This document shows, piece after piece, positions 48,773-64,000 of a stretch of 64,000 nt of DNA. The DNA is taken from positions 1-64,000 of the forward strand of contig CAIXZF010000052.1 of NCBI GenBank assembly GCA_903923925.1. Reading direction: 5' to 3'. Source of the DNA: an uncultured Bacteroidales bacterium (lineage in GTDB: Bacteria > Bacteroidota > Bacteroidia > Bacteroidales > CAIXZF01). Within the stretch, counting starts at the first letter, position 1. Every line of letters begins with the position of its first letter. The position numbers were made by a program, and so were the translations under genes. The notes beneath the pieces were generated by a model, which saw nothing but the letters and a program-made list of their open reading frames with translations, was not told the origin of the DNA and searched no databases.

Positions 48773-51700
48773 ATGAAACACAAATTCCAAATATTTATTT
48801 TTATCACATTCTCTGTGATTGCTTTGTTGGGACAACAAACGTTTTCTCAGCAGATTCCTGACAAATCATTTTCAGACATTTCCGAATCGCGTATTCCCGC
48901 GACAGGGAAGAGATACACCATTCCAGAGCATTACAGAACACTAAAACTGAATAAGCTCAGCATTGACAAAATTCTGAATAATGCTCCTGATGAAACACCA
49001 ATGGCGGTTAAAACCAGCCCGGCACTATTTGCAATGCCAATGCCTGATGGCAGTATTTCAAATTTCAGAATTGTAAAAACTCAAATGATGGAATCAGGTC
49101 TTGCCTTGCAATATCCAGAGATAACAACGTATGGAGGACAAGGTATTGATGATCCTACAGCAACACTAAAGCTGGATATGACACCTCATGGATTTCATGC
49201 AATGGTAATTTCATCAAAAGGAAGTTATTTTCTGGATCCATATAGTGATGGTATAACTGATTATTACTTTTGTTATGATAAGAAAGACCTTAAAAGGTCG
49301 AAAGAATTTATTTGCGGAGTAGATGATGTCCTCACTTCAGACGAAATCCACAAGCTTCTTCCCGATGGGCAAATAGCATCAAAATCGTCAGGAACACAAC
49401 TAAGAACTTACAGGCTAGCTTTAGCAGCAACTGGAGAATACACTGCTTTTCAGGGAGGTACCGTTGCCTTGGCACTGGCTGCCATGGTTACCACTATGAA
49501 CAGGGTCAACGGAGTATATGAATCAGAAGTTGCTGTTCGATTGATACTTGTGGCAAATAACAATTTAATTGTTTACACAGATGCTGCCACCGACCCTTAT
49601 TCAAATTTTAACGGAGGTACCATGCTGGGACAAAATCAGTCCAACCTCACTACAGTAATTGGCTCTGCTAATTATGACATGGGTCACGTATTCAGCACCG
49701 GAGGGGGTGGAATTGCAGGTTTGGGAGTAATTTGTTCAAATACAGCCAAGGCCAGGGGTGTAACTGGTTTACCCTCTCCTGTCGGCGATGCCTTTGATAT
49801 TGACTATGTTGCCCATGAGATGGGGCATCAATTTGGAGGAAATCATACGTTTAACAGTGTAACTAGTAGTTGTGGCGGTAACAGGGCAGCAGCAGCAGCA
49901 TTTGAACCCGGGAGTGGCATTACGATAATGGCATATGCCGGAATTTGCGGAAGCGACAACCTTGCACCACATAGCATTGCATATTTTAGCACAAAGAGTT
50001 TTGATGAGATCGTAAATTATACAACAAGCGGAACTGGAAATACATGCCCGGTAAGAATAAATACGGGCAATGCAATTCCGGTAGTTAGCAGTATGGGGTC
50101 AAACATTTCAATTCCGGTGTCAACCCCATTTATTCTTACAGGAGCAGCAACTGATGCTGACAACGATCCGCTCACGTATTCCTGGGAAGAATTTGACCTG
50201 GGTTCTGCAGGCGCATGGAATGTTCAATCAACAACAGCTCCCATGTTCAGGCCGTTTAGTCCTGATATCTCCGGATCGCGTACTTTCCCTAAGCTCACAG
50301 ATATTATTAACAACACAATCACAGTTGGCGAGTTGTTGCCTTCCAATGCACGCACACTGAAATTCAGGTTAACTGTTCGCGACAACAAGCCTGGCGGAGC
50401 AGGTGTATCACATCCTGATACTACCTTGAATATTAATGTTGTGAACAACGGTGGTCCGTTTACAGTAACTGCCCCAAACACAGCAGATACATGGGCAAGT
50501 GGCTCCACACAGACAGTAAGCTGGAATGTTAACGGAACCAACCTTGCACCAATAAATTGTGCAAATGTAAAAATCTCTTTATCTACTGACGGGGGCAGCA
50601 CATTCCCAACTGTAATTCTGGCAAGCACTCCGAATGATGGCAGTGAAAACATAACTGTCCCTTTTGTTGCGACTACCCAGGCAAGAATAAAAGTTGAAGC
50701 AGCAGACAATATCTTTTTTGACATGTCGAATGTTAATTTTACCATCACATTCACTCTGCTTTCAGCAATTACCACTTCGACAACTCTCCCTGTATCAATT
50801 TGTACAGGATCGAATCTGAATGTGGATTTTACTGCTAATGGGGTTGCAAACGCAGGTAATTTCTTTTCCGTGCAGCTTTCTAATGCATCTGGTTCATTTG
50901 CAAGTCCAGTTGTGATTGGGACAATGGTTTCGCAGAATACAGGATCTATCGCTTGCACCATACCAGCAAATACAGCAGTTGGCAATGGATACAGAATTCG
51001 GGTTATTGGCAGCAATCCAGCAATAAATGGAAGCGACAATGGCGGCAATATCTCAGTAAATCAGATGGCACAACCTTTTATTATTGCGTCAGGACCAGCT
51101 GAAATTTGCAGCGGACAACAACTTCAGTTATTTACCAATGCAAGCGGAAATTCAATTCGATTTGATGGGATAAATGATTATTTGCTCGGGCCTAACGACG
51201 TAATACCAGTAACTGGCGATTACACGGTTTCAGTATGGGCGAAACAGGCAAACCCTCATCCCGGACAATTTAGCCAGATTATTGCCCAGGGACGCAATTT
51301 CTATATCGGTTCCAGCAATACGGGTACTATAAGAGTTGGCGATTCATGGGCGAATACTGGTATTCCATTCCCAACTGATGGTCAATGGCATTTTTACACC
51401 GTTGTAAGAACAACAACAAATACTTTTCTTTACTTAGACGGCTCACTTGCTGCAACAAAAGGAAGCGCAATACCTCCTCCTGACGGACTTGGCAACACCT
51501 TTCCCCACACCCTGATGATAGGAACCCAATGGATGCCTATTGAATATTTTGATGGCTACATTGATGATGTTCAAATCTGGAATGCTGCCAGAACAGCTTC
51601 TCAGATCCTGATTGACAAGTACGCTCAATATAATGCCTCTACTCCTGGCCTGGTAGCTTACTACCCTTTCAATGAAGGCACAGGAGCGACTACTTTTAAC

Positions 51701-54700
51701 GCTATTAATAACGGAACCCCTTTAAGCTTTACGAATGGACCGGTTTGGCAGCTCCCATCAAATTCACCAATTGGTGGCAATGCATACGCAACTTACCAAT
51801 GGTCATCCGGCTCAACAGCACCATCTGCCACAATTAATTCTGAAGGAACCTATACGGTTACAATTACTGACAACAAAGGCTGTTCAGGTATTGCCAGCCA
51901 GGCAGTAATTGTTCACCCAATACCAACAGCCATTGTAACTCCTTCTGCACAGCAGGTTTGCACAGCTGCTGCAATGGTTCCGATAGTATTGTCAAGCAAT
52001 GTTAGCGGCACCACATTCACATGGACAAAAGTATACGGAAGTGCAACAGGATTAGCTCTTTCAGGCAGCGGTGATATTACCGGTACTCCCACAATAGTCC
52101 AAACTAGTGCACAGCTTGTTCTTTATGATATTGTACCAAGATATATAAATAACATTCTTACCTGCACAGGACCAACAGAAAGGGCGGCAATTATTGTCAA
52201 CCCATTGCCAGGTATTACACCACCAGCCAACCAGGCTGTTTGCAACAATAGTTTAATTACACCTAATGGATTCAATGGCCCGGTTACAGGAACTGGCTTT
52301 AGCTGGTCGAACAACAATACTTCGATCGGTCTGGCAGCAAGCGGTGTTGGGAATATTGGCAGTTTCACAGGTACAAATCCAACAAATTCTGATGTTTCTG
52401 CCACTATTACAGTAACACCACTTCTCCCCGCTTCACAAGCTATGGAGAATTTTGACAACTACTCTGCAGGTGATATCTGCGGACAAAATTGGAGATGGTC
52501 ACACTGGGGTGCCCAAGGCTGTGGTTCTGTTGTAAACAATATAGCTTACAGTGGTTCGAACAGCCTTTTGATTTCAGGTCCGGCAGTATATGGGTCAACA
52601 TCTGTTGACAATCTGTATTACCTTGGAAATCAGACAACAGGAGAATGGGATCTCTCGTTTAAAATGTACGTCCCAGCCGGAAAAACCGCTAATTACAATA
52701 TGCAGCATTGGTATTTCACTCAATGGGGTCAACAGGTATATTTTGCTTCCAACGGAACTGGGGTTCTCTCTGGTGTTGCCGGTGCTACAGTTCCTTTCAC
52801 TTATCCACAAGGGCAATGGTTCGAGGTTAAACAACTCATTAACCAGAATACTGACCAGACTTCACTCAGCATTAATGGCGTTTCAGTTGCTAGCTGGAGG
52901 TTTTCAAATATGTGGGAGAATGTTATTGCATCAAATGTAATTGGTGGACTTGATTTTTTTGCACAAACAAACTTGACTCCAAGTATTGAACCGAATATTG
53001 CTGCAAGCGGATTGTTTTATATTGATGACATCAGTCTTACAAGCCTGTCGCCAGTTACACAATTCAGTTGCCCTGGAAACCCTGCAACATTCAATATAAC
53101 GGTTCATCCAACTCCTGAAGTTAGTTTCAGCAATGCTTTACCTGCACAGGCTTTATGTGGTGATGCAATACTTCTCTCAGGTGGTCTGCCGGCAGGAGGT
53201 ACATACAGCGGCCCCGGTGTGAATGCAAATCTTTTTGATCCCTCAGTTGTGGGCCCGGGTGTTCATCCGCTCACTTATACTTATGCAAGCTCTTTCGGCT
53301 GTATTAATTCAACAACAAACACCATTTTAGTAAATACTCCTCTGTCCTATGTTTACAATGTTGGAATTGGCGGAGATTTCCCTGATCTTACAGGAACAAA
53401 TGGTTTATTTGCTTTCCTTAATGCAAACCGTCGCTGCGGAAATGTCACTGCATATATCCTCAACGACCTGAATGAGAGTGGATTAAATGGATTAAATGAA
53501 AGTGTAGAAGTATTACCCGGCGGTTTTACTATAGTTATTCTTCCATCCGACAACACTACTAAATTAATCAGCGGCAATGTGTCGCAAGCATTGATCCGTT
53601 TAAACGGAATCGACAGAATTAGTATTGATGGAGGTATTTTCTGGCCAAACAAAGCCTTGAAGTTCCGCAATTCTAATACGAATGCCCCTACCCTCTTAAT
53701 CAGCTCCGGCGTTTCGAGCGCAAATATTTCCGGTTGTGAATTTGAAGGGAGTAACACAAATGCAAACAGTGGTGTTATTGCATTAGAATCAAGTATTGCG
53801 GCAAACAGTGGAATCAATTTTACCAGAAATATAATCGGGAATATTGACGAAATTAATGTGCCGTCGAATCTGTTTATTTCAACGGGAAGTGGTGCATTCC
53901 TGAACAGTAATGTAACATTTAACACGAATGAATTCCGTAATTACAACAGCAATGGCATCTCTGTTTCCGGAGCAGGGAATGGCAATTCATGGAACATTCA
54001 GAATAACAGTTTCTACTCAACTATTGTCATTGGAGGTAATCAGGCAGCTATAAACTTCATTCCCGGCTCTCTATCGACTGGAAATGAGATTAAGACAAAT
54101 TACATTGGTGGCAGTACTTACCAGGTTTTTGGCACTCCAATGACAAATTCCGGCTCTGGATTCTTCAAAGGAATCTCATGCAATTCGGCCAATACAATTG
54201 TTTCCGGAAACACCATCAGCAATATAAAACTGACTAACATAGGAATGCCTGTATTTAGTGGAATAGAGATCCTTGGCGGAGCAGCAGTCGTTGGGCAGGG
54301 CAATATCATTGGAAGCATAAGCGCACCCTATGCAATTTCAATTCATGGTGCAGGTACTTTTGAGGGGATTAAATCATTAGCAGCATCAAATGTGATAATT
54401 GTAGGAAATAAGATAGCAAATATCAATTTCACAAGCAATTCCGGAAGCCCTAATGCTATATGCCTATATCTGAAACAAGGCAAAGTGGATGAAAATCTGG
54501 TATTCAATATCGGAGCTCAATACTCTAATGTATCACCTTTTATTATAGGGGTTAAGAATGAAAGTGCAGGAATTCCGAACAGCATTACTAACAATATGAT
54601 TGCCTTAAAAGGAGGAAATTCAGCAAACCCGAGGTTATACGGCATCTATGATAAATCATCCGGAAATGCAGGAACAATTTCATGCAACACTGTTTCGATT

Positions 54701-55444
54701 TCAGGTATTGCAAATCCGTCAGCTACGAATCTGAGTTCAGCATTTTACAGGGAAAGTTCCGCTACACTAATTCTGAACAATAACATCCTCTTTAACTCTA
54801 AATCAAGTACTTTGGGAGCAAAACATTACGCTGTTTACAGTACAACAACAAGCGGACTAACTTCTAATTACAATGATTTATACAGTATCTCACCAAACCT
54901 GGTAAATTGGGCGGGAAGTGTATACACTAATCTGACAAACTGGAAATCAGCTACTGCAAAAGACTTGAGCAGTATCAGTATTACACCTGTATTCAATTCA
55001 GCCACTGACCTGCATCTTACTCCTGCAAATTCAGGCATCGATAATAAAGGCACACCTCTAAGTGGCATTGTATACGACTTTGATGCAGCTCCACGCAGCA
55101 GCCTGACACCTGATATCGGAGCTGACGAATTTGTGAGTGCACCGGCATTTTCAGCTTTTGAAGAAACTGAAGTATCCATTGCGGAACCAGCATTAAAGAT
55201 TTATCCAAACCCTGTGTCAACAAACGCTATGCTAGTTGTTTCTGTGGGCGAAGAAAGTAAGGTCAATTTGAATATATACAACATTATTGGCGAGCTGGTG
55301 CTAAATCTCGATGAACAGATAGTACAGAAAGGCGACAATAACATTGAGTTGAATGCTTCAATGCTAAGGCCAGGACTATATATCTGCACAATGCTTGTAA
55401 ACAAAGAGAAATCAATCAAGAAACTGATTGAGGTTATCCGCTAA
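48773..55444 (+). CDS. Giant secreted reprolysin-like metalloprotease, multidomain, T9SS
   Basis: A 2223-residue secreted protein. A signal peptide (about 1-25) and a propeptide-like region precede a zinc metalloprotease domain (about 210-430). The zinc motif HEMGHQFGGNH (His348, His352, His358) and the Met-turn in IMAYAGICG near 386 mark the reprolysin/metzincin fold. Then follow Ig/fibronectin-like beta domains, a LamG/concanavalin domain (about 793-980, FDGINDYLLG), more beta domains, a second concanavalin-like unit (about 1225-1420, ENFDNYSAGDICGQNW), a parallel beta-helix (about 1530-2060) and a type A T9SS domain (IYPNPVSTNAMLVV to the end). Such proteins degrade or bind polymers outside the cell. 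A terminator follows at 55510, and an inverted repeat lies just before the start. Confidence 0.9.
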   Translation: MKHKFQIFIFITFSVIALLGQQTFSQQIPDKSFSDISESRIPATGKRYTIPEHYRTLKLNKLSIDKILNNAPDETPMAVKTSPALFAMPMPDGSISNFRIVKTQMMESGLALQYPEITTYGGQGIDDPTATLKLDMTPHGFHAMVISSKGSYFLDPYSDGITDYYFCYDKKDLKRSKEFICGVDDVLTSDEIHKLLPDGQIASKSSGTQLRTYRLALAATGEYTAFQGGTVALALAAMVTTMNRVNGVYESEVAVRLILVANNNLIVYTDAATDPYSNFNGGTMLGQNQSNLTTVIGSANYDMGHVFSTGGGGIAGLGVICSNTAKARGVTGLPSPVGDAFDIDYVAHEMGHQFGGNHTFNSVTSSCGGNRAAAAAFEPGSGITIMAYAGICGSDNLAPHSIAYFSTKSFDEIVNYTTSGTGNTCPVRINTGNAIPVVSSMGSNISIPVSTPFILTGAATDADNDPLTYSWEEFDLGSAGAWNVQSTTAPMFRPFSPDISGSRTFPKLTDIINNTITVGELLPSNARTLKFRLTVRDNKPGGAGVSHPDTTLNINVVNNGGPFTVTAPNTADTWASGSTQTVSWNVNGTNLAPINCANVKISLSTDGGSTFPTVILASTPNDGSENITVPFVATTQARIKVEAADNIFFDMSNVNFTITFTLLSAITTSTTLPVSICTGSNLNVDFTANGVANAGNFFSVQLSNASGSFASPVVIGTMVSQNTGSIACTIPANTAVGNGYRIRVIGSNPAINGSDNGGNISVNQMAQPFIIASGPAEICSGQQLQLFTNASGNSIRFDGINDYLLGPNDVIPVTGDYTVSVWAKQANPHPGQFSQIIAQGRNFYIGSSNTGTIRVGDSWANTGIPFPTDGQWHFYTVVRTTTNTFLYLDGSLAATKGSAIPPPDGLGNTFPHTLMIGTQWMPIEYFDGYIDDVQIWNAARTASQILIDKYAQYNASTPGLVAYYPFNEGTGATTFNAINNGTPLSFTNGPVWQLPSNSPIGGNAYATYQWSSGSTAPSATINSEGTYTVTITDNKGCSGIASQAVIVHPIPTAIVTPSAQQVCTAAAMVPIVLSSNVSGTTFTWTKVYGSATGLALSGSGDITGTPTIVQTSAQLVLYDIVPRYINNILTCTGPTERAAIIVNPLPGITPPANQAVCNNSLITPNGFNGPVTGTGFSWSNNNTSIGLAASGVGNIGSFTGTNPTNSDVSATITVTPLLPASQAMENFDNYSAGDICGQNWRWSHWGAQGCGSVVNNIAYSGSNSLLISGPAVYGSTSVDNLYYLGNQTTGEWDLSFKMYVPAGKTANYNMQHWYFTQWGQQVYFASNGTGVLSGVAGATVPFTYPQGQWFEVKQLINQNTDQTSLSINGVSVASWRFSNMWENVIASNVIGGLDFFAQTNLTPSIEPNIAASGLFYIDDISLTSLSPVTQFSCPGNPATFNITVHPTPEVSFSNALPAQALCGDAILLSGGLPAGGTYSGPGVNANLFDPSVVGPGVHPLTYTYASSFGCINSTTNTILVNTPLSYVYNVGIGGDFPDLTGTNGLFAFLNANRRCGNVTAYILNDLNESGLNGLNESVEVLPGGFTIVILPSDNTTKLISGNVSQALIRLNGIDRISIDGGIFWPNKALKFRNSNTNAPTLLISSGVSSANISGCEFEGSNTNANSGVIALESSIAANSGINFTRNIIGNIDEINVPSNLFISTGSGAFLNSNVTFNTNEFRNYNSNGISVSGAGNGNSWNIQNNSFYSTIVIGGNQAAINFIPGSLSTGNEIKTNYIGGSTYQVFGTPMTNSGSGFFKGISCNSANTIVSGNTISNIKLTNIGMPVFSGIEILGGAAVVGQGNIIGSISAPYAISIHGAGTFEGIKSLAASNVIIVGNKIANINFTSNSGSPNAICLYLKQGKVDENLVFNIGAQYSNVSPFIIGVKNESAGIPNSITNNMIALKGGNSANPRLYGIYDKSSGNAGTISCNTVSISGIANPSATNLSSAFYRESSATLILNNNILFNSKSSTLGAKHYAVYSTTTSGLTSNYNDLYSISPNLVNWAGSVYTNLTNWKSATAKDLSSISITPVFNSATDLHLTPANSGIDNKGTPLSGIVYDFDAAPRSSLTPDIGADEFVSAPAFSAFEETEVSIAEPALKIYPNPVSTNAMLVVSVGEESKVNLNIYNIIGELVLNLDEQIVQKGDNNIELNASMLRPGLYICTMLVNKEKSIKKLIEVIR

Positions 55445-55509
55445 CTGAATACTTAAATTGTAGTCACCGTGAAATCTATGCCTGCGATTTCGCAAAATCA
55501 ATAATTATA

Positions 55510-55552
55510 AAAAAGAAAGCGGCCTCCATATGACAGAGGTCGCTTTCTTTTT
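55510..55552 (+). terminator. Terminator of the giant protease gene
   Basis: A 17-base stem (AAAAAGAAAGCGGCCTC with its complement, one wobble) and a nine-base loop end in a T run about 65 bases after the stop. Confidence 0.85.
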
Positions 55553-55677
55553 AGTATATTGTTGCAAAAATAACAGGGACTTCCAGACTGCACATTATTT
55601 GCAAATGGAATACTTTGAATTTTGGCAAGTTAATATCAGCATGCCTTCGGTTTATAATTAATTTAAACAATATAATA

Positions 55678-56295
55678 ATGACAAATCATTTCGACCAGGT
55701 GGCACAAACCTGGGATAATAACCCTATCCATTGGGAAAGGACTCATGCAATAGCAGCAGAGATGCTGAAACTGATTGCTCTCAAAAAAGACATGAATGCA
55801 ATGGAATTTGGCTCAGGCACCGGCCTGCTGAGCTTTGCACTGAAAGAGCAATTTGCCGGAATTACGCTCATGGATAGCTCAATTGAGATGAATAATCAGG
55901 CAAAAGTTAAAATAGCTGCTACTGAAACTACTCACTTTACTCCACTGCACTTTGATCTTGAAAAGAATGATTTTACCCTTGAAACGTTTGATATCATCTT
56001 TACACAAATGGCAATGCACCACGTAAAAGACGTTCCTGCCATGATAAATAAGTTTTATGGTCTTTTGAATCCTGATGGATTTATTGCCATTGCCGATCTG
56101 TATACCGAAGATGGTTCATTCCACGACAGCAATTTTGATGGACATTATGGTTTTGATCCTGATTTAATGAAAAACGCCTTACTAAATGCCGGCTTTACTG
56201 ATCCTGTTCTAGTACCCTGCTTTGAGATTAAAAGATCTGATTCCAATAATACAGAGAAAGTTTTTCCAGTCTTCCTGGCTATAGCAAAAAAATAA
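55678..56295 (+). CDS. Class I SAM-dependent methyltransferase
   Basis: A 205-residue methyltransferase with motif I MEFGSGTGLLSFALKEQF near residue 41. An acidic ribose-binding residue follows in LMDSSIEMNNQAK, then motif IV-like DIIFTQMAMHHVKDVP. The fold is the common Rossmann type used on small molecules or proteins. The ATG at 55678 begins TNHFDQVAQTWDNNPIHWE, the usual N-terminal pattern of this subgroup; an in-frame TTG 21 codons upstream would add a low-complexity stretch. It is followed 78 bases later by the NifX-like gene. No substrate can be named. The spacing suggests, but does not prove, a shared transcript. Confidence 0.88.
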   Translation: MTNHFDQVAQTWDNNPIHWERTHAIAAEMLKLIALKKDMNAMEFGSGTGLLSFALKEQFAGITLMDSSIEMNNQAKVKIAATETTHFTPLHFDLEKNDFTLETFDIIFTQMAMHHVKDVPAMINKFYGLLNPDGFIAIADLYTEDGSFHDSNFDGHYGFDPDLMKNALLNAGFTDPVLVPCFEIKRSDSNNTEKVFPVFLAIAKK

Positions 56296-56373
56296 ATTGA
56301 ATAAATAAAATATACATTTCTTAAACTAAATTACTAACTTACAACATATTACAAACTATTTAAGAACTAAAAA

Positions 56374-56760
56374 ATGAGAATAGCAATTCCAATAACAAGG
56401 AGTAATGAAGTTGATGACCATTTTGGTCATTGTGAATATTACAGAATCTTTGATGTGTCAGAAAACAAGGATGTAAAAGAATTGGTAACTATAAAATCAG
56501 AACAGGGATGTGGCTGTAAATCGAATATTGCTGGTGTTCTGGCGGGTAATGGCGTCACTATTATGCTTGCAGGAGGTATTGGAGGTGGTGCTATTAATGT
56601 ACTTAATTATGCTGGGATAGAAGTTGTAAGAGGCTGCTCTGGAAATGCAATGGACGTTGTTAATCAATATGTTACGGGATCAATTACAGACAGTGGCGAA
56701 AGTTGTGCTGCACATGACCACCATCAGCATGAAGCTGGTGGCCATGTTTGTAATCATTAG
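56374..56760 (+). CDS. NifX/NifB-like dinitrogenase iron-molybdenum cofactor-binding family protein
   Basis: A 128-residue protein of the FeMo-cofactor-binding (NifX/NafY/DUF NifB-C) family. The fold is visible in MRIAIPITRSNEVDDHFGHCEYYRIFDV and the core AGVLAGNGVTIMLAGGIGGGAINVLNYAGIEVVRGCSG. A Cys motif EQGCGCKSN and a C-terminal His/Cys-rich tail (CAAHDHHQHEAGGHVCNH) are notable. Many members occur in non-nitrogen-fixing anaerobes and are thought to handle metal or Fe-S clusters. No nif genes are in view, so a role in metal or cluster transfer is inferred. It precedes an exported Ca-motif peptide by 86 bases. Confidence 0.9.
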   Translation: MRIAIPITRSNEVDDHFGHCEYYRIFDVSENKDVKELVTIKSEQGCGCKSNIAGVLAGNGVTIMLAGGIGGGAINVLNYAGIEVVRGCSGNAMDVVNQYVTGSITDSGESCAAHDHHQHEAGGHVCNH

Positions 56761-56846
56761 TACAATAATTCTGCATGCCAGGCGGAAGTTTTATCATTGT
56801 GAAGTGTCTTTTAATAGAGATCACTATTAACTTAAAATACTGAGCG

Positions 56847-57248
56847 ATGAAAACAAAATTGAAAACAATAATTATGATAGCCGCCGCTACAGTGGTAATT
56901 TCACTGGCTGCCCAGGCTCAAAATACTGACCCTTCCAAACCTGAAAAGGAAAATACACCAGCAGTTGATGTCAATAATTCGAGAACATTTGTCGATAAAA
57001 ACAATAACGGTAAATGCGATAACTATGAAGCCAGGCAAACAACTGGCAGCAGGAGTAACTTTGTTGATAAAGACGGGGATGGAATCTGCGATAACAAGCA
57101 AAACTCAGGAGCTAAATGTTCAAGCAGCAGCCCAAATGGGCGCTTTTGTAGTCAGAAAGGAAATGGCAATGGTAATTGCTGCGGAAGCAGAAAGGCTTAC
57201 AGGCATCGTTCAGGTGGAAATATGCAATGCAGAGGCAATGTAAAGTAA
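56847..57248 (+). CDS. Small exported protein with twin Ca-binding-like motifs
   Basis: A 133-residue protein with a signal peptide (about 1-24, MIAAATVVISLAAQA). Two close copies of an EF-hand/dockerin-like loop occur: FVDKNNNGKCDNYE and FVDKDGDGICDNKQ, spaced about 22 residues apart. The C-terminal third is rich in Gly, Ser, Asn and Cys (CSSSSPNGRFCSQKG, NGNCCGSRK) and basic residues, so it may bind metal or form disulfides. The translation continues normally and ends 28 bases before the ECF sigma gene. I know of no named family. The neighbourhood suggests a metal- or redox-linked role. Confidence 0.75.
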   Translation: MKTKLKTIIMIAAATVVISLAAQAQNTDPSKPEKENTPAVDVNNSRTFVDKNNNGKCDNYEARQTTGSRSNFVDKDGDGICDNKQNSGAKCSSSSPNGRFCSQKGNGNGNCCGSRKAYRHRSGGNMQCRGNVK

Positions 57249-57276
57249 TTAACAGATAATCAATTAATTAAGACTT

Positions 57277-57864
57277 ATGACAGACAAGGAACTGATTAGC
57301 GGAATTATCAATCGTGATAATGTGGCTATTCAGCACCTTGTTGTCAACTTCCATAAAAAAGTTATTAAAACGGCATACTATTTTGTACACGATATGCAAG
57401 ATGCAGAAGACCTCGCCCAGGACGTTTGTATTGAGATTCTTGAATCTGCAAAACATTTTAAAGGAATGTCTTCGTTAAATACATGGATTTACCGGATTAC
57501 TGTAAATAAGTCATTGAATTTTATCCGGAAAAACAAAAGAAAACAATTATTCAGCCAGATTGAGGCTGTTTTTATGAACAGAGATGGTTCCCATGCAGTT
57601 GAACGGCTTGAACCTAGCTATATTGATACAAAGTTTGATGATGGTGAACGTAAAGTTTTACTGGGAAAATCGATTAATACATTGCCTGAGAATCAAAGAA
57701 CTGCTTTTATTTTGAGCAAATATGATGAACTGCCTTACAAAGAAATTGCCGAAATAATGAACGTTAGCCTGGCTTCAGTTGAGCAGCTGCTGCACCGGGC
57801 TAAGATGAACCTGCAAAAGAAATTAATTGTTCATTATGCTGAGTATTCAACTAAAAAACAATAA
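57277..57864 (+). CDS. ECF-type RNA polymerase sigma factor
   Basis: A 195-residue sigma-70 family protein lacking regions 1 and 3, as in extracytoplasmic-function sigma factors. Region 2 runs through VIKTAYYFVHDMQDAEDLAQDVCIEIL with the usual AEDLAQDV core, then FKGMSSLNTWIYRITVNKSLNFIRK. Region 4 is in NTLPENQRTAFILSKYDELPYKEIAEIMNVSLASVEQLLHRAKMNL. The stop is two bases before the anti-sigma ATG, so the products are made in step. The trio with the next two genes suits a signal-responsive regulon, most likely metal or envelope stress. The target promoters are unknown. Confidence 0.95.
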   Translation: MTDKELISGIINRDNVAIQHLVVNFHKKVIKTAYYFVHDMQDAEDLAQDVCIEILESAKHFKGMSSLNTWIYRITVNKSLNFIRKNKRKQLFSQIEAVFMNRDGSHAVERLEPSYIDTKFDDGERKVLLGKSINTLPENQRTAFILSKYDELPYKEIAEIMNVSLASVEQLLHRAKMNLQKKLIVHYAEYSTKKQ

Positions 57865-57866
57865 GC

Positions 57867-58316
57867 ATGAACTGCACAAATTTCAGAAACAGCATTTTTT
57901 CCTGGTCCGAGAATGACTTTTCAGCTTTTTCGGCTGCGGAACTTGAAGCGCATTCAAAAGAATGTGCTGATTGTTCTTTTCTTTTGGAGGAGTTTCGCAA
58001 AACCATGGCAATCATTGAACAGGAAAAACGTATTGAACCCAATCCTTTCGCCGAAACCCGTTTACTGCAAAAACTTGAAAATTACAAAGAAGCTGAAAAT
58101 TGGTGGGATTTTCCTGTTCCGAAGCCTTTTCTTCGTCCGATATATCTGGGTCTGGGAATTACAGCAGCAATTTTACTGGGTGTAGTAATGGGCTTCGAAG
58201 AAGGTGGAATTTATTTGAATTTGACTTCTAAAATTACCAATATTGAATCTGTTCGATCGGAGTTAAATGTGCCTGACATTATGGGAGAAGATATAATTGA
58301 GTTCTCAAATCAATAA
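57867..58316 (+). CDS. Membrane anti-sigma factor with ZAS-type zinc motif
   Basis: A 149-residue protein. Its N-terminal cytoplasmic part has the His29-x3-Cys33-x2-Cys36 arrangement in EAHSKECADC, the zinc-binding anti-sigma (ZAS) motif, plus an N-terminal Cys3. One membrane segment (IYLGLGITAAILLGVVMGF, about 92-110) leads to a short periplasmic tail of about 40 residues. This is the usual layout of anti-ECF factors that hold the sigma until a signal arrives. It starts two bases after the sigma gene and ends 12 bases before the sensor gene. It probably binds the sigma at 57277-57864. Confidence 0.85.
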   Translation: MNCTNFRNSIFSWSENDFSAFSAAELEAHSKECADCSFLLEEFRKTMAIIEQEKRIEPNPFAETRLLQKLENYKEAENWWDFPVPKPFLRPIYLGLGITAAILLGVVMGFEEGGIYLNLTSKITNIESVRSELNVPDIMGEDIIEFSNQ

Positions 58317-58328
58317 ATATATAAGCAT

Positions 58329-58859
58329 ATGAACCTCTTTAAAAAATATCGTATATTACCATGGATTCTGGCTTTTGTAAGCATAGTAATCGTTTCGGCG
58401 GCAACATCCTACCTTATTTTTAATGCTGGTGTTCTTACAAAAGAGAGACCTATTGAGAGTGCTAAACCAGGAACTGTTCTGGAAACAGAATTATCGCTGA
58501 CACCTGATCAAAGTATTAAAGTTGAGCAGATTAACAACTCGTTTAAAGAAACAACTGAGACGGTTATTTCTGAAATTCAGGAAAAAAAAGTTGAACTACT
58601 CGATGAACTTTCAAAAGATCAAACAGATACAAATATAGTTTCAAAAATTGCCGACGAACTTTCCGCTGAACAAAAGCAACTACAGAAAGCTAATATAAAT
58701 CAGTTCCTGGAATTGAAGAAGGTATGCAACACTGAGCAAACCAAGAAATTATCCCAAATATACTCTGAACTTTACGGATGTAGCGGTAAAGGAAAGGGAC
58801 AAGGACAAGGAATGGGCCACAGGCATCGTTGGGGACAGCAGAGGAATAATAATCAATAA
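58329..58859 (+). CDS. Periplasmic sensor/heavy-metal resistance (CnrX/CpxP-like) protein
   Basis: A 176-residue protein with an N-terminal membrane anchor (about 8-30, ILPWILAFVSIVIVSAATSYLIF) and a periplasmic helical domain. It contains ELSLTPDQSIKVEQINNSFKE and QKKVELLDELSKDQT-like amphipathic helices typical of CnrX, ZraP and CpxP relatives. A late Cys (KKVCNTEQ), a YGCSG motif and a C-terminal Gly/Gln/His-rich tail (GMGHRHRWGQQRNNNQ) could bind metal. It starts 12 bases after the anti-sigma gene. In the CnrYXH model the sensor and anti-sigma jointly restrain the sigma until metal binds. The comparison is by architecture and position only; no metal is known. Confidence 0.8.
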   Translation: MNLFKKYRILPWILAFVSIVIVSAATSYLIFNAGVLTKERPIESAKPGTVLETELSLTPDQSIKVEQINNSFKETTETVISEIQEKKVELLDELSKDQTDTNIVSKIADELSAEQKQLQKANINQFLELKKVCNTEQTKKLSQIYSELYGCSGKGKGQGQGMGHRHRWGQQRNNNQ

Positions 58860-58959
58860 AAGTTAAATTGCCAACCACTTTCCGGCAAGTGAAATCTAGT
58901 GTTCGGTGGGGACATTATACTTAAAGCTTTCGAAGAAAGGTAATCAGAATCTTTCAGCA

Positions 58960-59257
58960 AGGCAGGTTCACCATGAACTGCCGATTTATCTTTAGGATTT
59001 CCACCAAAACCTATAGCTATTTTACCATGACCCTGTTGAACAAGTTGATCGACTCTGCTCCTTATGTCAAGAGACATTTCTGGTTTTGCACAAATTGATA
59101 AAGTATTTTCTATGCCTTTATGGGATACTTTTTCAGCACCGAAAGCGAGGACCAGGTAATCATAATTAAGTTCCTGATTAGCCAGAAGAACTTTATTCTC
59201 AGTTGCATTGATGCCAATAACTTTTTCAATAACTACCGGTTGTGCATGAAACCGGTA
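58960..59257 (-). pseudogene. Remnant of an NAD(P)/FAD-dependent oxidoreductase
   Basis: On the minus strand one frame is open from a TAG at 59258-59260 and reads HAQPVVIEKVIGINATENK, then NYDYLVLAFGAEK, KPEMSLDIRSRVDQL and GKIAIGFGGNPKDKSAV. This is the middle of a sulfide:quinone-reductase/NDH-2-like flavoprotein, with the typical YDYLVLAxG strand and the following helix and second nucleotide-binding segment. After GEPA the sequence no longer resembles the family. The region upstream continues only in another frame, perhaps after a +1 shift, up to about 59340. The start and both nucleotide-binding ends are missing, so this is a decayed fragment. It once may have belonged to the neighbouring redox/metal cluster. 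Confidence 0.7.
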
Positions 59258-59376
59258 CTATCCGGAAACCAGATCCCCGAAAAATTGTGCGTACTTGTGC
59301 AGCATCATTTTCCATTCCATAGCAATATGCTGAACCTATTCTTTTAAAGTTCATCAGGGCCAACAGCAAATTACGC

Positions 59377-59413
59377 AAAATAGGGCGTCTCCTATAAGAA
59401 AACGCCCCATTTT
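59377..59413 (-). terminator. Terminator of the ABAB-repeat protein gene
   Basis: Arms AAAATAGGGCGT and ACGCCCCATTTT pair with one wobble and enclose a 13-base loop. It lies about 20 bases after the stop at 59432. The following T run is short. Confidence 0.65.
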
Positions 59414-59431
59414 ACAATTCTGGTTTACTGA

Positions 59432-60940
59432 CTATTGTTTAAGTATTTTCCGAGTTGTTGTAGTTCCCTCATTATCAATTCTAACATAATAAATACCTTG
59501 AGTCAGGTCATTAATGTTTAACTGAAACTGATTAGTTTGTGTATTTGAATTTAAAACAATTTGTCCAAGACTGTTAAACACCATAATGTGCCCAATTGCA
59601 CTGTTGGAAGCTATTGTTAAATAATCAATTGCCGGGTTAGGATAAATTGTTAGTTCTGAATTGCTTAGCTCTTCATTTGCAATTGCAGATTTTGCTCCTG
59701 AAAGTATAATGGAGAAGGTCAGATCGCTGATATCGAAAATAGAAGGATTTGATACACTTACTATTTTAACAGCATAATCTGTCCCAGCTAAAACACAGCT
59801 TGGTATCATCCAGTCGAAACTTCCACTGTTTGCAGCTGAAGAAGCAATCAGACACCTCTGAACACCATTCTTCAACAGAAGAATGCGAACATTTCCAACA
59901 ATATCGCTTGTCCATGTAATTGTATTTGTTGTGCCTACTGTATATGTTTCACCACCATTTGGTGAAACTACAGCTAGTGTAGAGCCACTGCCTCCAGTGA
60001 TTGAGAAGGTTGAATCAGAAATATCTGAGATTGTAGTATTGATACAGCTGGAAATTTTTACAGAATAATCTGTACCATTAATAATAGTAGCAGGAAGAGT
60101 CCAGCTGTAGCTGCCCGTATTTGGCAAGAAACCAGCAATTACAGAATATTGTATTCCATTTTTCAACAGAACTATCCTTAAATTACCTGTAACATCACTG
60201 TTCCATGTAATCAGATTGGTTGTGCCAGCTGTCCATATTTCACCGCCATTGGGTGAAGTAAGAGTAACCATAGTGCCACCACCAGCAATGATTGAGAAAG
60301 TAGCATTACTTAAATCGGAAATAGTTGGATTTGAAATACTAATAACTTTGACCGTATAATCAGTTCCAGCAAGCATGCCAGCAGGGATTAACCAGGCAAA
60401 ACTACCTGTATTCGGAGCTGCTGAAGCAATGAGAGCTTTCTGAATACCATTCTTCATAAGCAAGATTCGAACATTTCCAATAACATCACTGGTCCAGGTG
60501 ATCGTATTCGTTGTTCCGGCTGTATAAGTTTCGCCACCGTTTGGTGAAACTACTGCCAGCGTAGAACCGCTACCACCGCTTATAGTGAAGTTAGCATCAC
60601 TTTCATCCGTAATTGTAGTATTGATACAGCTATATATTTTTACTGAATAATTGGTACCATTAATAATAGCAGCAGGTATTATCCAGTTAAAGCTTCCTGT
60701 ATTGGTAACAAAAGCAGCAATTACTGAATATTGTACCCCATTTTTTAATAAAACTATTTTTAATTTGGTTGTTACATCACTGGTCCAGGTGATTGTGTTA
60801 GTGGTTCCGGCTGTCCATAGTTCACCTCCATTAGGTGAAGTAACAGAAACTGTAGCTGCCTGAACAGAATTAAACCCTGACATAACAAACATTAGTAAAA
60901 ATACTGTCAGAAAGATCTTTACGTGAGAAATTGTTTTCAT
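59432..60940 (-). CDS. Secreted four-repeat (ABAB) beta-sandwich protein with T9SS domain
   Basis: A 502-residue secreted protein. The signal peptide (about 1-28, ending NSVQAA) is followed by four beta-sandwich repeats of about 97 residues. Each begins TSPNGGE or VSPNGGE and ends in a form of ISDxSxxTFSI, resembling the Ser/Thr-anchored (Kre9/Knh1-like) domain group. Repeats 1 and 3 share VLLKNG(V/I)QYSVIA and SCINTTI, and repeats 2 and 4 share STLAVVSPNGGETYT and ASxAxN(T/S)GSF, giving ABAB order. A type A T9SS domain (LTIYPNPAIDYLTIA to the end) closes the protein. It is likely a surface adhesin or polymer binder. It is monocistronic, with a terminator at 59377. Confidence 0.88.
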   Translation of the reverse strand: MKTISHVKIFLTVFLLMFVMSGFNSVQAATVSVTSPNGGELWTAGTTNTITWTSDVTTKLKIVLLKNGVQYSVIAAFVTNTGSFNWIIPAAIINGTNYSVKIYSCINTTITDESDANFTISGGSGSTLAVVSPNGGETYTAGTTNTITWTSDVIGNVRILLMKNGIQKALIASAAPNTGSFAWLIPAGMLAGTDYTVKVISISNPTISDLSNATFSIIAGGGTMVTLTSPNGGEIWTAGTTNLITWNSDVTGNLRIVLLKNGIQYSVIAGFLPNTGSYSWTLPATIINGTDYSVKISSCINTTISDISDSTFSITGGSGSTLAVVSPNGGETYTVGTTNTITWTSDIVGNVRILLLKNGVQRCLIASSAANSGSFDWMIPSCVLAGTDYAVKIVSVSNPSIFDISDLTFSIILSGAKSAIANEELSNSELTIYPNPAIDYLTIASNSAIGHIMVFNSLGQIVLNSNTQTNQFQLNINDLTQGIYYVRIDNEGTTTTRKILKQ

Positions 60941-61032
60941 AGTGTTTAGAATTTGAGTTAGAAAAGAAAAAGAAAAAAATTGTGTAAACCTTTTTTTAAA
61001 CTTGAACTTAAAGAGAATGCATTCCTCGAAAC

Positions 61033-61040
61033 CAAAAGTA
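61033..61040 (-). promoter_or_regulatory. Candidate -7 box of the ABAB-repeat protein gene
   Basis: On the minus strand TACTTTTG matches TAnnTTTG about 93 bases before the ATG at 60940. No TTTG lies at the usual -33 spacing. The 5' leader contains a long A/G-rich run on the plus strand. Confidence 0.35.
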
Positions 61041-61114
61041 AATGAAACCTAATATGTAGCTGTTATGATATTTTATTAAAAGTGTATAAGATTTAATGTT
61101 TAAAAAATATATTT

Positions 61115-61801
61115 CTATTGAACAATAGCATCAAATTCAGCCTGTGTAATAAATTGCGGAACATAAGTGATCCCGCGATTAACAAGTTGAAAGTTAAATG
61201 CTCTCAAATGGTTTTTGGATCCATTCATCAGGTTATTAAATACAAAAAGCATATCTGCATTATCAACATACTGCATACGATCTTTCAGATCAAATATATC
61301 CTTGTCCTCGATTGTCGCTCCAACTTTTAGGGCATCATTCAAAGAGGAGCTTCCCTGGGCAAGAAAAGCGTTGTATAAGCTTTGTAAATCCGGATCGGTA
61401 AAAACACCAATTTGGTGGTTTGCTGCCGGATCAGGAAGGTTGTATAAAAGGATTAATTTCTGGATGGCTGTTGTATGAACAAGCTCACTTTTGGCAATAT
61501 TTTTGAAAACAGGCAAAGTATAGAGATTTTGCATACTCAAATAAATGTCCCTGGCGAGCAATTCCTCTTCCCTCATGAAATTTAAGGTAGTAATTTCAAT
61601 TGGATCCAAAACACCAGGAGTGAAGGCAGCTAACTTTGAAGACAACTCGGGGTCGGTAATTTCAGCATATTTTGCTGTGTTCGACTGATTAGTGTCAGAA
61701 GTTTGAACAGATGCATCCTTCTGGCAGGAGATCATGACCATTGAAAGGCCGATTGCACTCATCAGAATAAGACGAGTTAGAAAATTCTTTTTAGTTTTCA
61801 T
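61115..61801 (-). CDS. DUF2202 ferritin-like lipoprotein
   Basis: A 228-residue protein with a lipoprotein signal ending VMISC (Cys about 26). The conserved domain begins TTLNFMREEELLARDIYLSM and continues through FKNIAKSELVHTTAIQKLI, then DKDIFDLKDRMQYVDNADM and NHLRAFNFQLV. The paired E-E/H blocks look like the four-helix ferritin-like core of DUF2202 proteins. Whether it binds metal is not known. It is preceded by 314 bases of the ABAB gene region in the other direction of transcription order and followed by the U32 protein. It is likely monocistronic. The start ATG at 61801 gives a complete signal peptide. Confidence 0.85.
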   Translation of the reverse strand: MKTKKNFLTRLILMSAIGLSMVMISCQKDASVQTSDTNQSNTAKYAEITDPELSSKLAAFTPGVLDPIEITTLNFMREEELLARDIYLSMQNLYTLPVFKNIAKSELVHTTAIQKLILLYNLPDPAANHQIGVFTDPDLQSLYNAFLAQGSSSLNDALKVGATIEDKDIFDLKDRMQYVDNADMLFVFNNLMNGSKNHLRAFNFQLVNRGITYVPQFITQAEFDAIVQ

Positions 61802-61915
61802 TTTTTTATGGTTTTAAGTGATTGGTTAAAGAGCTTTGTAAACATATGGACACACAAGAGCGGATAAACTTCCGCTGCTGCATCGAAATAATTAAAATGT
61901 ATTGGAAGAAATAAC

Positions 61916-64000
61916 TCAGATTCCCTTTTTATACTGGCTGCAGGTGGTTGGGTGGATACTGCTGCTGATATCCTGCACAGAGTCAGGAATGCCATTCAGA
62001 AGATTCTCGAAACACATTATAATATTTGGCTTATCAACCTTAACATTAGTTTTAGTTTCGATATCTCTTAAATCAAGTAAATAAGCAGTGAAGAGTTCCG
62101 GAATATCAGCTATAATACCTGTATTCAGGTAATTAGTATCATGATATACATTGTGATAGTTTCCCTTTGTTTTACTAATAAAAGAGGTGACAGCCTTTAA
62201 ATTTGTAATAGACGAAACCTTCTCACACTGCTGAATGCAGGAATCATCAATTTTATTTTTTTCGCAGCCCGTAACCTGGTGAAACAGGCATTGCCTGCTC
62301 GTCATCACCATTATAGGATGATAAATACTATAGAATAATTCGAAGTCCTTAGGTTTTTTAATGGCTTTAATCTGGGTATTATTAATTTCATTGGAGATAA
62401 ATGCGCCTGAACAGTTAAACTTTTCTTTCAGACATAACAAACTGAATGAATTAACAATATTAAGATAAGGACCTGCTATCCAGTTAATTCCCTGCTGAAA
62501 AGCTTCAAAGGCTATTCCAATATTATTGGTCACGATATTTTTCGGTTTCAACTGACCCAGAAAGTTAACAGCTGCAGTGTATTCCTCCCCAATGAGAATT
62601 GAAGGAAACCAGGGAATGAGCCTTTCATTTTGAATAAAAAGCTCAATTAATCCTTTAGAATCATTGCTAATAGAATTGGGAAGCTGGAAGTAAACATTTG
62701 CCTTCGTTGAATCACACAAGTATTTATCCTCAATGGAGGATATTAATATGCAAAGACCTGATTTAATCGTTTTTGAAGTACTCCTGTTTAGGACAGGAAC
62801 ATCGACGGGTGAAACAGTTTCTCTTGATCCATTAAGTGTATATAATATTCTGTTTTTAAGAGAGTTGATTTCTTTAAAAGGAATAAAGAGATTTTTTTGT
62901 AGTTTGTCCGAATCTAGATGTTCGATAAAATATTCTGTATCGTTTAAGGCTTTCAGCCTTTTTAGCAGCATTTCATGATCCAATTTTTGCTCGGTTACAC
63001 TTACAAGATTGATATCTGAAATAACAGAAAATAGCATATCAGGCGTTTCTGCTGATATTTCCAGAGGTCTCCCCTCCTTACCCGAAATGCTTATTGTTAA
63101 TGGTGCCCTGGCGATACTTAAATTGTTGATTTCGTTTTCAACTGTATTGATAATTTCCGTTCTTTCATCATAGATATCGCCTTTTGCTTTTTCTAATGTT
63201 TCTTCAGAAGCAGGCCCATTTATTCCTGATAAATGAATAGCAGAATTGTCCCTGGGATTATCGATAAACATTTCATTGCTGATCTCACCGCTCAGGAAAG
63301 CATTCGAAAAATCACGGTTAAATACTTTGTAAAGAGCGCTTTTGTCATGGTTTATGTCATTTGACTTAAAGAAAAGGTTTAACTGTTTTCGCCAGGCGTC
63401 CACAACAGTATAAACATAGTGAAACTTTTTAATCCGGCCTTCAATTTTGAGAGCGTCGACACCTGCCGCAATCAATCCTCTTAAATCATTAAAGGCAGAA
63501 TTATCCTTCAGGTTAAGGGGGAAATCTTTACCCATTTTTGTACCGACGTACTGATCTCTGCAGGGCTGACTGCAGCGACCCCGATTACCTGAATTACCAG
63601 TATGGACAGAACTCATATAGCAGAGTCCGGAAAAAGATATACAGTTAGAACCATGAACAAAGACTTCTGCCAGCATAGAATTCTGATGACAAACCTCAGA
63701 TAAGTCCTTTATTTCATGGATATTAAGTTCCCGTGACAGGTTTACACGGGTTGCTGACAGTTTATTCAAAAATTGAACCTGGCCAGCATTATGGGTTGTA
63801 AGCTGAGTAGAAGCGTGTACTTTAAATCCCTTGAAATAGGTAGATAAAATGTAAAACAGACCCAGATCCTGAACAATAATTCCGTCAATGCTTGTATTGA
63901 TTAATTTATTCAGCATTTGAAAAAGGGCAGGAAGTTCACTGTCAACGATGATAATGTTGAGCGTCAGAAAAACCTGGCAATTATTTTTATGTGCAAGTCG
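61916..64000 (-). CDS. U32-family peptidase/RlhA-like protein (5' end beyond window)
   Basis: The reading frame is open to the window's right edge, so the visible 694 codons are the C-terminal part of a larger protein. The visible start reads RLAHKNNCQVFLTLNIII, typical of the U32 TIM-barrel. The core shows GLCYMSSVHTGNSGNRGRCSQPCRD and DALKIEGRIKK, the U32 signature. A late Cys-rich segment (SRQCLFHQVTGCEKN, then DDSCIQQCEKV) matches the Cys-bearing extension of RlhA/YdcP-type U32 proteins. Some of these carry an iron-sulfur cluster and hydroxylate 23S rRNA. An internal ATG at 63914-63916 is not the true start. The assignment to RlhA rather than another U32 subgroup is tentative. Confidence 0.85.
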   Translation of the reverse strand, partial: RLAHKNNCQVFLTLNIIIVDSELPALFQMLNKLINTSIDGIIVQDLGLFYILSTYFKGFKVHASTQLTTHNAGQVQFLNKLSATRVNLSRELNIHEIKDLSEVCHQNSMLAEVFVHGSNCISFSGLCYMSSVHTGNSGNRGRCSQPCRDQYVGTKMGKDFPLNLKDNSAFNDLRGLIAAGVDALKIEGRIKKFHYVYTVVDAWRKQLNLFFKSNDINHDKSALYKVFNRDFSNAFLSGEISNEMFIDNPRDNSAIHLSGINGPASEETLEKAKGDIYDERTEIINTVENEINNLSIARAPLTISISGKEGRPLEISAETPDMLFSVISDINLVSVTEQKLDHEMLLKRLKALNDTEYFIEHLDSDKLQKNLFIPFKEINSLKNRILYTLNGSRETVSPVDVPVLNRSTSKTIKSGLCILISSIEDKYLCDSTKANVYFQLPNSISNDSKGLIELFIQNERLIPWFPSILIGEEYTAAVNFLGQLKPKNIVTNNIGIAFEAFQQGINWIAGPYLNIVNSFSLLCLKEKFNCSGAFISNEINNTQIKAIKKPKDFELFYSIYHPIMVMTSRQCLFHQVTGCEKNKIDDSCIQQCEKVSSITNLKAVTSFISKTKGNYHNVYHDTNYLNTGIIADIPELFTAYLLDLRDIETKTNVKVDKPNIIMCFENLLNGIPDSVQDISSSIHPTTCSQYKKGI

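Follow-up and report, generated by a model that had tools for sequence, protein, structure and literature searches.

The 64,000 nucleotides analyzed here (the window) are positions 1 to 64,000 of contig CAIXZF010000052.1, assembly GCA_903923925.1, of an uncultured Bacteroidales bacterium whose genome comprises 4.6 Mb in 117 contigs. Based on gene content and a promoter-like motif, the region from 56784 to 58859 probably contains an autoregulated envelope-response operon of four genes, encoding a twin-loop peptide, an extracytoplasmic function (ECF) sigma factor, a membrane anti-sigma factor and an anchored CnrX/Spy-like helical protein. A preliminary description had tentatively joined these genes to a preceding NifX-like gene in a single metal-responsive circuit of five. 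The five adjacent plus-strand open reading frames were all present as described, with gaps of 2 and 12 bases within the trio of sigma, anti-sigma and CnrX-like genes. The unit is taken to be the four genes from the peptide gene on, because the motif lies between the NifX-like and peptide genes and heads 46 of 65 related operons. The features of the operon, followed by two neighboring genes, are:

56784..56811 (+), ECF-type promoter-like site GGAAGTTTT-N13-GTCTTT, 17.5 bits, 35 bases 5' of the peptide start codon
56847..57248 (+), putatively exported twin-loop peptide, 133 aa, with signal-like N-terminus and two loops; first gene of the proposed operon
57277..57864 (+), ECF sigma factor, 195 aa (PF04542, E 5e-16; PF08281, E 4e-18)
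57867..58316 (+), membrane anti-sigma factor, 149 aa; short tail, single hydrophobic stretch and H-x3-C-x2-C motif
58329..58859 (+), anchored CnrX/ZraP/Spy-like helical protein (PF13801), proposed sensor, 176 aa, with HRHR tail
56374..56760 (+), NifX-like protein with His/Cys tail (PF02579, E 3e-20), a neighbor judged to lie outside the operon
61115..61801 (-), DUF2202 ferritin-like lipoprotein (PF09968, E 2e-49), a possible further target, with a weak motif at 61846-61873 (-)

Conservation of the proposed operon

Searches of 295 genomes belonging to the order matched the sigma factor at E 1e-38 or better in 68 genomes, the peptide at E 1e-5 in 18 and the NifX-like protein at E 1e-15 in 87. 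Of the stretches examined, 60 came from genomes of the order (two of them from the same genome as the window), and a public genome collection supplied a further 11 loci. The resulting 65 trio loci are a sample, since of 71 matched places the higher-scoring ones and some others were taken. The sigma gene of L085 and the second copies in L014 and L016 lack a CnrX-like gene, and these three were excluded from the trio counts; five stretches had no sigma gene (L116, L118, L119, L121 and L125), and L009 was left out of later counts.

Genes for the sigma factor, the anti-sigma factor and the CnrX-like protein recur together in these 65 loci and thus do not form a chance arrangement, which agrees with the earlier proposal that the trio is a system. 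The peptide gene adjoins the trio in 17 of the 65 loci, before the sigma gene in 14 and after the CnrX-like gene in three. Of the 18 genomes in which the peptide was matched, 14 have it beside the trio (a second copy in the case of G206); in G091, G147 and G226 it is found on a stretch without the trio, while the match in G040 has internal stops and gained no confirmation from the profile. Conservation of the five-gene order had been suggested as a check on the preliminary description: the peptide is kept with the trio, and the NifX-like gene is not.

Promoter-like motif

The stretches upstream of the trio loci have a common consensus, GCAAGTTTT followed after 13 bases by GTC(T/A)AA. The general form is (G/A)CAAGTTTT-N13-GTC(T/A)(A/T)A, of which the site between the NifX-like and peptide genes, absent from the preliminary description, is a variant. 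With a two-box matrix the 46 operon heads mentioned above scored more than 12 bits, and the spacer was 13 bases in 45 of them. The operon site was the only one in the window above 16 bits on either strand (next best 15.9); four shuffled windows gave 0, 0, 0 and 1 sites above that score, and three other shuffles peaked at no more than 16.1 bits. Circularity was avoided by training a second matrix solely on the 48 loci without peptide. This independent matrix scored above 12 bits at 34 of those 48 heads and at 12 of the 17 peptide operons, compared with 6 of 510 shuffles; the window site reached 15.3 bits, a value matched by 2 of 1500 shuffles. In L116 the peptide gene, with no trio on its stretch, is nevertheless preceded by the motif (23.1 bits). 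In L069, the nearest relative by sigma factor, the motif heads a row of genes for DUF2202, peptide, sigma, anti-sigma and CnrX-like protein.

A different box, GTAGGAAA, recurs 5' of the sigma gene in the peptide loci L123, L124 and L126. It lies about 13 bases ahead of GTCTAA or a similar sequence and perhaps reflects a sigma factor with a shifted -35 preference. Promoters and ECF sigma factors of Bacteroides thetaiotaomicron are treated in the accessible parts of PMC7366714 and PMC12596196; the former distinguishes the EcfO motif from a second B. thetaiotaomicron motif.

Two layouts of related loci

Two arrangements of the trio loci could be distinguished. The CnrX-like gene is single in 17 of 17 peptide loci compared with 11 of 48 others, and at least two such genes are present in 37 of the 48 loci without peptide (p 1e-8, kinship ignored). 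The motif occurs between the sigma and anti-sigma genes in 44 of the 48 loci lacking the peptide, whereas 1 of the 17 peptide loci has it there (p 1e-10). These counts include as they stand the single-CnrX loci L074, L102 and L113 (no peptide) and the peptide locus L117, all of which stop near contig ends. The contrast between one and two CnrX-like genes, like the tail patterns given below, was picked after the data had been seen and is exploratory.

The second CnrX-like proteins (14 looked at by eye) have a signal-like start and Gly/Met-rich flanks, often with Cys or His; two of them were scanned and gave weak matches to CpxP, ZraP or Spy, below the cut-off. The pattern is read as the peptide standing in for the second, putatively exported Spy-like protein of most relatives, one predicted exported product replacing another. 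In the sigma tree the window falls in a set of eight peptide loci with a Shimodaira-Hasegawa-like approximate likelihood ratio test (SH-aLRT) support of 99.

Twin-loop peptide

Members of the peptide family usually have two FVD-x-N-x-DG-x-CDN loops and a Gly/Cys-rich tail. The loops of the window peptide are FVDKNNNGKCDNYE and FVDKDGDGICDN, and the protein contains seven Cys and a single His. With its signal-like N-terminus, from which export is predicted, it corresponds to the exported, Cys-rich twin-loop product of the preliminary description. The term "Ca-motif", also used there, is a fair description of the loops; an assignment to the EF-hands was rejected, since the Pfam EF-hand models gave 11.4 and 10.6 bits against a cut-off of about 25. 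In an alignment of 20 of the 21 members (A2; L011 was omitted, its frame being apparently broken), residues D50, G55, C57, D58 and C81 are invariant and F48, N59, G79 and D82 nearly so.

When the peptide was scanned against Pfam and NCBIfam, none of the models reached its cut-off, and the peptide profile found no match among solved structures. Structure prediction from three sequences gave a mean predicted local distance difference test score (pLDDT) of 40 and was left out of the fold search. A search of the wider class with profile A2 matched one of 295 genomes, that of the window itself, and is weak because no more than 14 candidates per genome were scored (of up to 95) with a low-complexity query. 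A search of the open-licence literature revealed neither the peptide nor the shared promoter, the sole near match being PMC13114119. The type of switch is known, while the peptide family is, as far as the searches go, undescribed, as are the shared promoter and the exchange for a Spy-like protein.

A thioredoxin cluster, grouped by single linkage with thioredoxin reductases and rhodanese-like proteins, was found on nine of the 71 stretches, namely eight peptide loci (L011, L070, L071, L073, L116, L118, L119 and L121) and L125. Some peptide settings also include OsmC, DUF302, a pyridine-nucleotide oxidoreductase or Crp-type regulators, several of these named by eye. Such neighbors point to thiol or sulfur chemistry near the peptide; the window retains broken pieces of two such genes only. 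These are two gene remnants joined end to end at 58958-59354 (-), both much shorter than their relatives in L121: a DUF1847-like piece (59354-59235, 45% over 40 residues) and a piece of a pyridine-nucleotide oxidoreductase (59236-58958, 62% over 93 residues).

It is rather doubtful that the twin-loop peptides constitute a new family of sigma-controlled exported metal buffers, with two Ca-like loops that each carry a conserved Cys and a His/Gly tail like that of the neighboring sensor. By holding the ligand of the sensor, such a peptide would at once shield the envelope and complete the feedback loop, in place of the Spy-type protein found in the sister layout.

Sigma factor, anti-sigma factor and sensor

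The two sigma domains, PF04542 and PF08281, bear out the naming of the third gene product as an ECF sigma factor, and its solved relatives are sigma-H and sigma-E. The description of the next product as a zinc-binding anti-sigma (ZAS) protein also stands, based on H-x3-C-x2-C (HSKECADC) and a single hydrophobic stretch averaging 2.2 over 19 residues. It gave a weak match to an NCBIfam anti-sigma model (E 1e-4, below cut-off), and no family model reached its cut-off. When 32 of the 65 anti-sigma factors were aligned (A3), H29, C33 and C36 were nearly invariant (at least 90%).

The last protein matches PF13801 (Metal_resist) at E 1e-9, above the cut-off; this family has three matching places in the genome, all within the loci of the window trio and of a second trio. 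An N-terminal hydrophobic stretch (mean 2.36 over 19 residues) would serve as anchor, and the C-terminal end is GHRHRWGQQRNNNQ. Profile matches were obtained to a Salmonella VirG-like protein (E 2e-8), ZraP (2e-8), Spy (7e-5) and NccX (7.5e-4), those to CnrX being 0.05 or worse. In the AlphaFold model a helical domain follows the anchor (mean pLDDT 80; helix 6-36), and the structural ranking placed CnrX (Z 11.1) before ZraP (10.8) and Spy (9.0). Values of Z below about 13 may, by the warning of the ranking tool, reflect a common helical arrangement only. Since unrelated helical proteins reach Z 8 to 9.5, and since Foldseek with this model gave a best E of 0.03 and nothing at 0.001 or better, the fold alone is not decisive.

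The metal ligands of CnrX include His42, His46 and His119. With the ligand columns mapped by eye through the NccX alignment, the window sensor has Q at that of His119 and no His at those of His42 and His46. At the column of Met123, a further CnrX ligand according to the accessible part of PMC7689651, it has L. Because these ligand residues are absent, the window sensor, though related to CnrX, is predicted to be unable to use the CnrX metal site, and metal could bind only elsewhere, for example at a Cys of one column or at the tail. The earlier designation as a CnrX-like anchored sensor therefore fits the family and the anchor stretch and fails for the ligands. Across the loci, the His119 column has H in 4 of 17 peptide loci and 30 of 48 others, and the Met123 column has M in 0 of 17 and 14 of 48. 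The Cys in question is present in 14 of the 17 peptide loci and in 28 of the remaining 48, and HRHR-like sensor tails, a pattern chosen afterwards, at 12 of 17 compared with 4 of 48. The sensor alignment (A1) comprised 44 of the 65 sensors.

Other candidate targets of the motif

A search for the exact pattern in 246 genomes of the order matched 103 places in 65 genomes. Fifty-three sites in 51 loci were inspected; as 29 loci came from the pattern search, 2 from the earlier stretches and 20 were picked by hand, mostly at places not seen before, the sample is biased. The next gene encoded an anti-sigma factor at 13 sites, an outer-membrane barrel of one family at 13, the peptide at 5, a sigma factor at 5 (one of them weak, E 5e-7), a CnrX-like protein at 2 and something else at 15. 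The barrel, which had been seen with the motif earlier at L108, took no part in deriving the motif, and its recurrence therefore supports a real regulon, part of the sites being hand-picked. One such barrel gene is present in the genome of the window (L164: motif at 1501-1528, gene from 1564), with PF14905, a TonB plug and a carboxypeptidase regulatory-like domain. Inspection of nine partial motif matches in that genome revealed no recurrent gene. When two mismatches were allowed, the pattern gave 50 places and the reversed control 86, so that mismatch scans of the genome are uninformative.

Compared with the barrel, the DUF2202 gene is a weaker target candidate. Its motif scored 18.2 bits in L069 (where it leads the operon), 24.9 in L095 (a motif of its own), 13.5 in L123 and 11.8 in the window, the last value being reached by 8 of 413 background genes. 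The motif is absent before DUF2202 in L011, L093 and L126, in the last of which the gene closes an operon-like row. Conserved Glu, Asp and His residues look ferritin-like by eye, and no mention of DUF2202 was found in the open-licence literature.

The exact motif was also observed before a DUF302-looking gene (L233) and before a gene for a small Cys/His-rich exported protein (L206); these are single cases that may be due to chance. On either side of the locus lies a gene for a large secreted-looking protein. The one at 59432-60940 (-) encodes four Kre9/KNH-type immunoglobulin-like stretches and a type IX secretion tail, and the product of the other (48773-55444 (+), 2223 aa) has an end that appears similar by eye.

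NifX-like neighbor

The PF02579 domain and the His/Cys tail of this product were confirmed, and its solved relatives are 1t3v and 1o13. Against the NCBIfam NifX equivalog it scored 23.5 bits, the cut-off being 112. The gene adjoins that of the peptide in the window, L116 and L121, and at none of these three places does a good motif lie upstream (the top score is 7.5 bits for the window, with -4.4 and -8.8 for the other two), so that it was rejected as a motif target. Within 1.5 kb on each side, or less at contig ends, 30 NifX loci had DUF134 in 22, a methyltransferase of the window type in 6 (window included), the peptide in 2 and the sigma factor in 1, the window. By genome, the NifX-like protein is present in 11 of 18 peptide genomes and 76 of 277 others (p 0.006; hand count, kinship ignored). 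This co-occurrence and the adjacency in three genomes argue in favor of a loose link between NifX-like protein and peptide. In the window the methyltransferase gene (55672-56295 (+)) precedes the NifX-like gene, and the two may form a module of their own.

Comparison with known systems

The closest studied system is CirYZ-Spy of Phocaeicola vulgatus, a gut member of the Bacteroidales, in which a sigma/anti-sigma pair (CirY/CirZ) is co-transcribed with spy and a second such locus exists (PMC13114119, 2026, accessible text). According to the same text, deletion of the anti-sigma gene, by which the regulon was found, raises the expression of its own sigma and spy; CirYZ-Spy is induced 130-fold and more in colitis, and insertions in the genes are not under-represented there. 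As in the window, an ECF sigma, an anti-sigma and a Spy-like gene lie in one operon, co-transcription in the window being deduced from order and gaps. A peptide is not mentioned in the accessible text of PMC13114119, whose main text does not contain the word "motif"; the two systems were compared by gene content.

CnrYXH of Cupriavidus metallidurans likewise has adjacent genes for a sigma factor, a membrane anti-sigma factor and an anchored periplasmic sensor of the same protein family. It differs in gene order, the window operon having the peptide as its first gene, and in the metal ligands that the window sensor lacks. The anti-sigma factors also differ, H-x3-C-x2-C being the mark of zinc-binding class I domains and CnrY belonging to class II, as given in the accessible part of PMC7406223, which also places 6% of Bacteroidetes ECF sigma factors near class I anti-sigma factors. 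Dma anti-sigma factors are another design (PMC13088901, accessible part). No resistance-nodulation-division (RND) metal efflux pump was seen by eye among the open reading frames listed for 53000-62500, the regulon at large not having been searched for pumps. Spy, ZraP and CpxP resemble the window sensor in profile and structure, but they are soluble exported proteins, whereas the protein of the window has retained its membrane anchor and is encoded next to a sigma pair.

The second trio, which lies on contig C99 of this genome (L127), shares with the window a sigma factor (41% identical), an anti-sigma factor, a CnrX-like protein and the motif at its head. In contrast, it has two CnrX-like genes, no peptide, a second motif before the anti-sigma gene and a shortened anti-sigma factor without H-x3-C-x2-C. 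The NifX/NifB-type proteins share the PF02579 domain with the window protein, which differs in falling far below the NifX cut-off; its homologs usually lie near DUF134.

Proposed mechanism and alternatives

The proposed mechanism starts from what was read in the sequences: the gene order, the motif, the protein families and the replacement pattern. At rest, the anti-sigma factor would hold the ECF sigma factor at the inner membrane, and the state of the anti-sigma factor would presumably depend on the anchored CnrX/Spy-like protein. Once freed by a signal outside the inner membrane, the sigma factor is expected to read this motif and start transcription at the promoter of CAAGTTTT-N13-GTC type between the NifX-like and peptide genes. 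The peptide would be the first product, with sigma factor, anti-sigma factor and sensor next on the same message, so that amplification and shut-off would be coupled. If exported as predicted, the peptide would act outside the inner membrane, probably by binding metal ions or damaged protein. Other likely targets are the DUF2202 lipoprotein and an outer-membrane barrel, the latter in relatives and at another place in this genome. Metal or thiol-metal chemistry has close to an even chance of being the signal, a misfolded envelope protein is a credible candidate at somewhat below even confidence, and something else is unlikely.

Several observations weigh against the operon model. The window motif is a weak variant (GG instead of GC; GTCTTT). 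The independent matrix finds no head motif in 5 of the 17 peptide operons (L122, L123, L124, L126 and L069, the last having its motif before the upstream DUF2202 gene), and 14 of 48 operons without peptide score below 12 bits at the head. The reversed control pattern gave about 75 places compared with 103 (both hand counts), so that many single motif sites are due to chance, and at the 15 of 53 inspected sites listed as something else the next gene is unrelated. Kinship weakens the contrast between one and two CnrX-like genes: the peptide label requires 5 changes on the sigma tree, compared with a mean of 15 when shuffled, and an independent-pairs test of the layout contrast gave one supported pair and had no power.

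The original idea of one five-gene circuit under a CnrX-type sensor, with the NifX-like protein and the peptide serving as metal carriers, is considered very unlikely. The common strand, the short gaps, the His/Cys tails in both proteins, the NifX-like gene beside the peptide gene in three genomes and its higher frequency in peptide genomes (11/18 compared with 76/277) all agree with it. It is contradicted by the promoter-like site, which follows the NifX-like gene with no good one 5' of it, by the neighborhood of the homologs (DUF134 in 22 of 30 loci, this sigma factor in the window alone) and by a sensor with Q and L at two CnrX ligand positions and no His at two others.

The absence of the CnrX ligands is in turn consistent with the same operon responding purely to protein folding in the envelope, after the manner of Spy/Cpx, in which case the sensor binds misfolded protein, the peptide is chaperone-like or surface-protecting and metal has no role. 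Such a response is a realistic possibility, held at clearly less than even confidence. The resemblance of the sensor to Spy, ZraP and CpxP, the putatively exported second CnrX/Spy-like gene in 37 of 48 loci without peptide and the barrel as a likely target all fit it, and CirYZ-Spy is taken by its authors as an envelope-stress response (PMC13114119, accessible text). On the other hand, the Cys and Asp residues that never vary in the peptide loops and the HRHR-type sensor tails (12 of 17 peptide loci, 4 of 48 others) suggest metal or redox chemistry. Like CpxP in the Cpx system, the peptide might compete with or cover the sensor and so be mainly a feedback regulator and no effector, a role regarded as quite unlikely. 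Peptide and sensor tails are alike within the same loci, the peptide would come from the same operon, and as a separate promoter before the anti-sigma gene is found in 1 of 17 peptide loci compared with 44 of 48 others, shut-off may rest on something else. Low-complexity tails could converge, however, and in L118, L119 and L121 the peptide is present on stretches that show no trio.

In many genomes of the order a motif of fixed spacing precedes genes for sigma and anti-sigma factors, the peptide, Spy-like proteins and the barrel, which makes regulons of this kind predictable from sequence. The peptide family offers a small, expressible target for tests of binding to metal or unfolded protein. 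The two layouts, one a single peptide-led operon and the other with separate promoters for the sigma gene and for the anti-sigma gene with sensor and Spy-like protein, suggest that feedback has been designed in two ways about the same kind of sensor.

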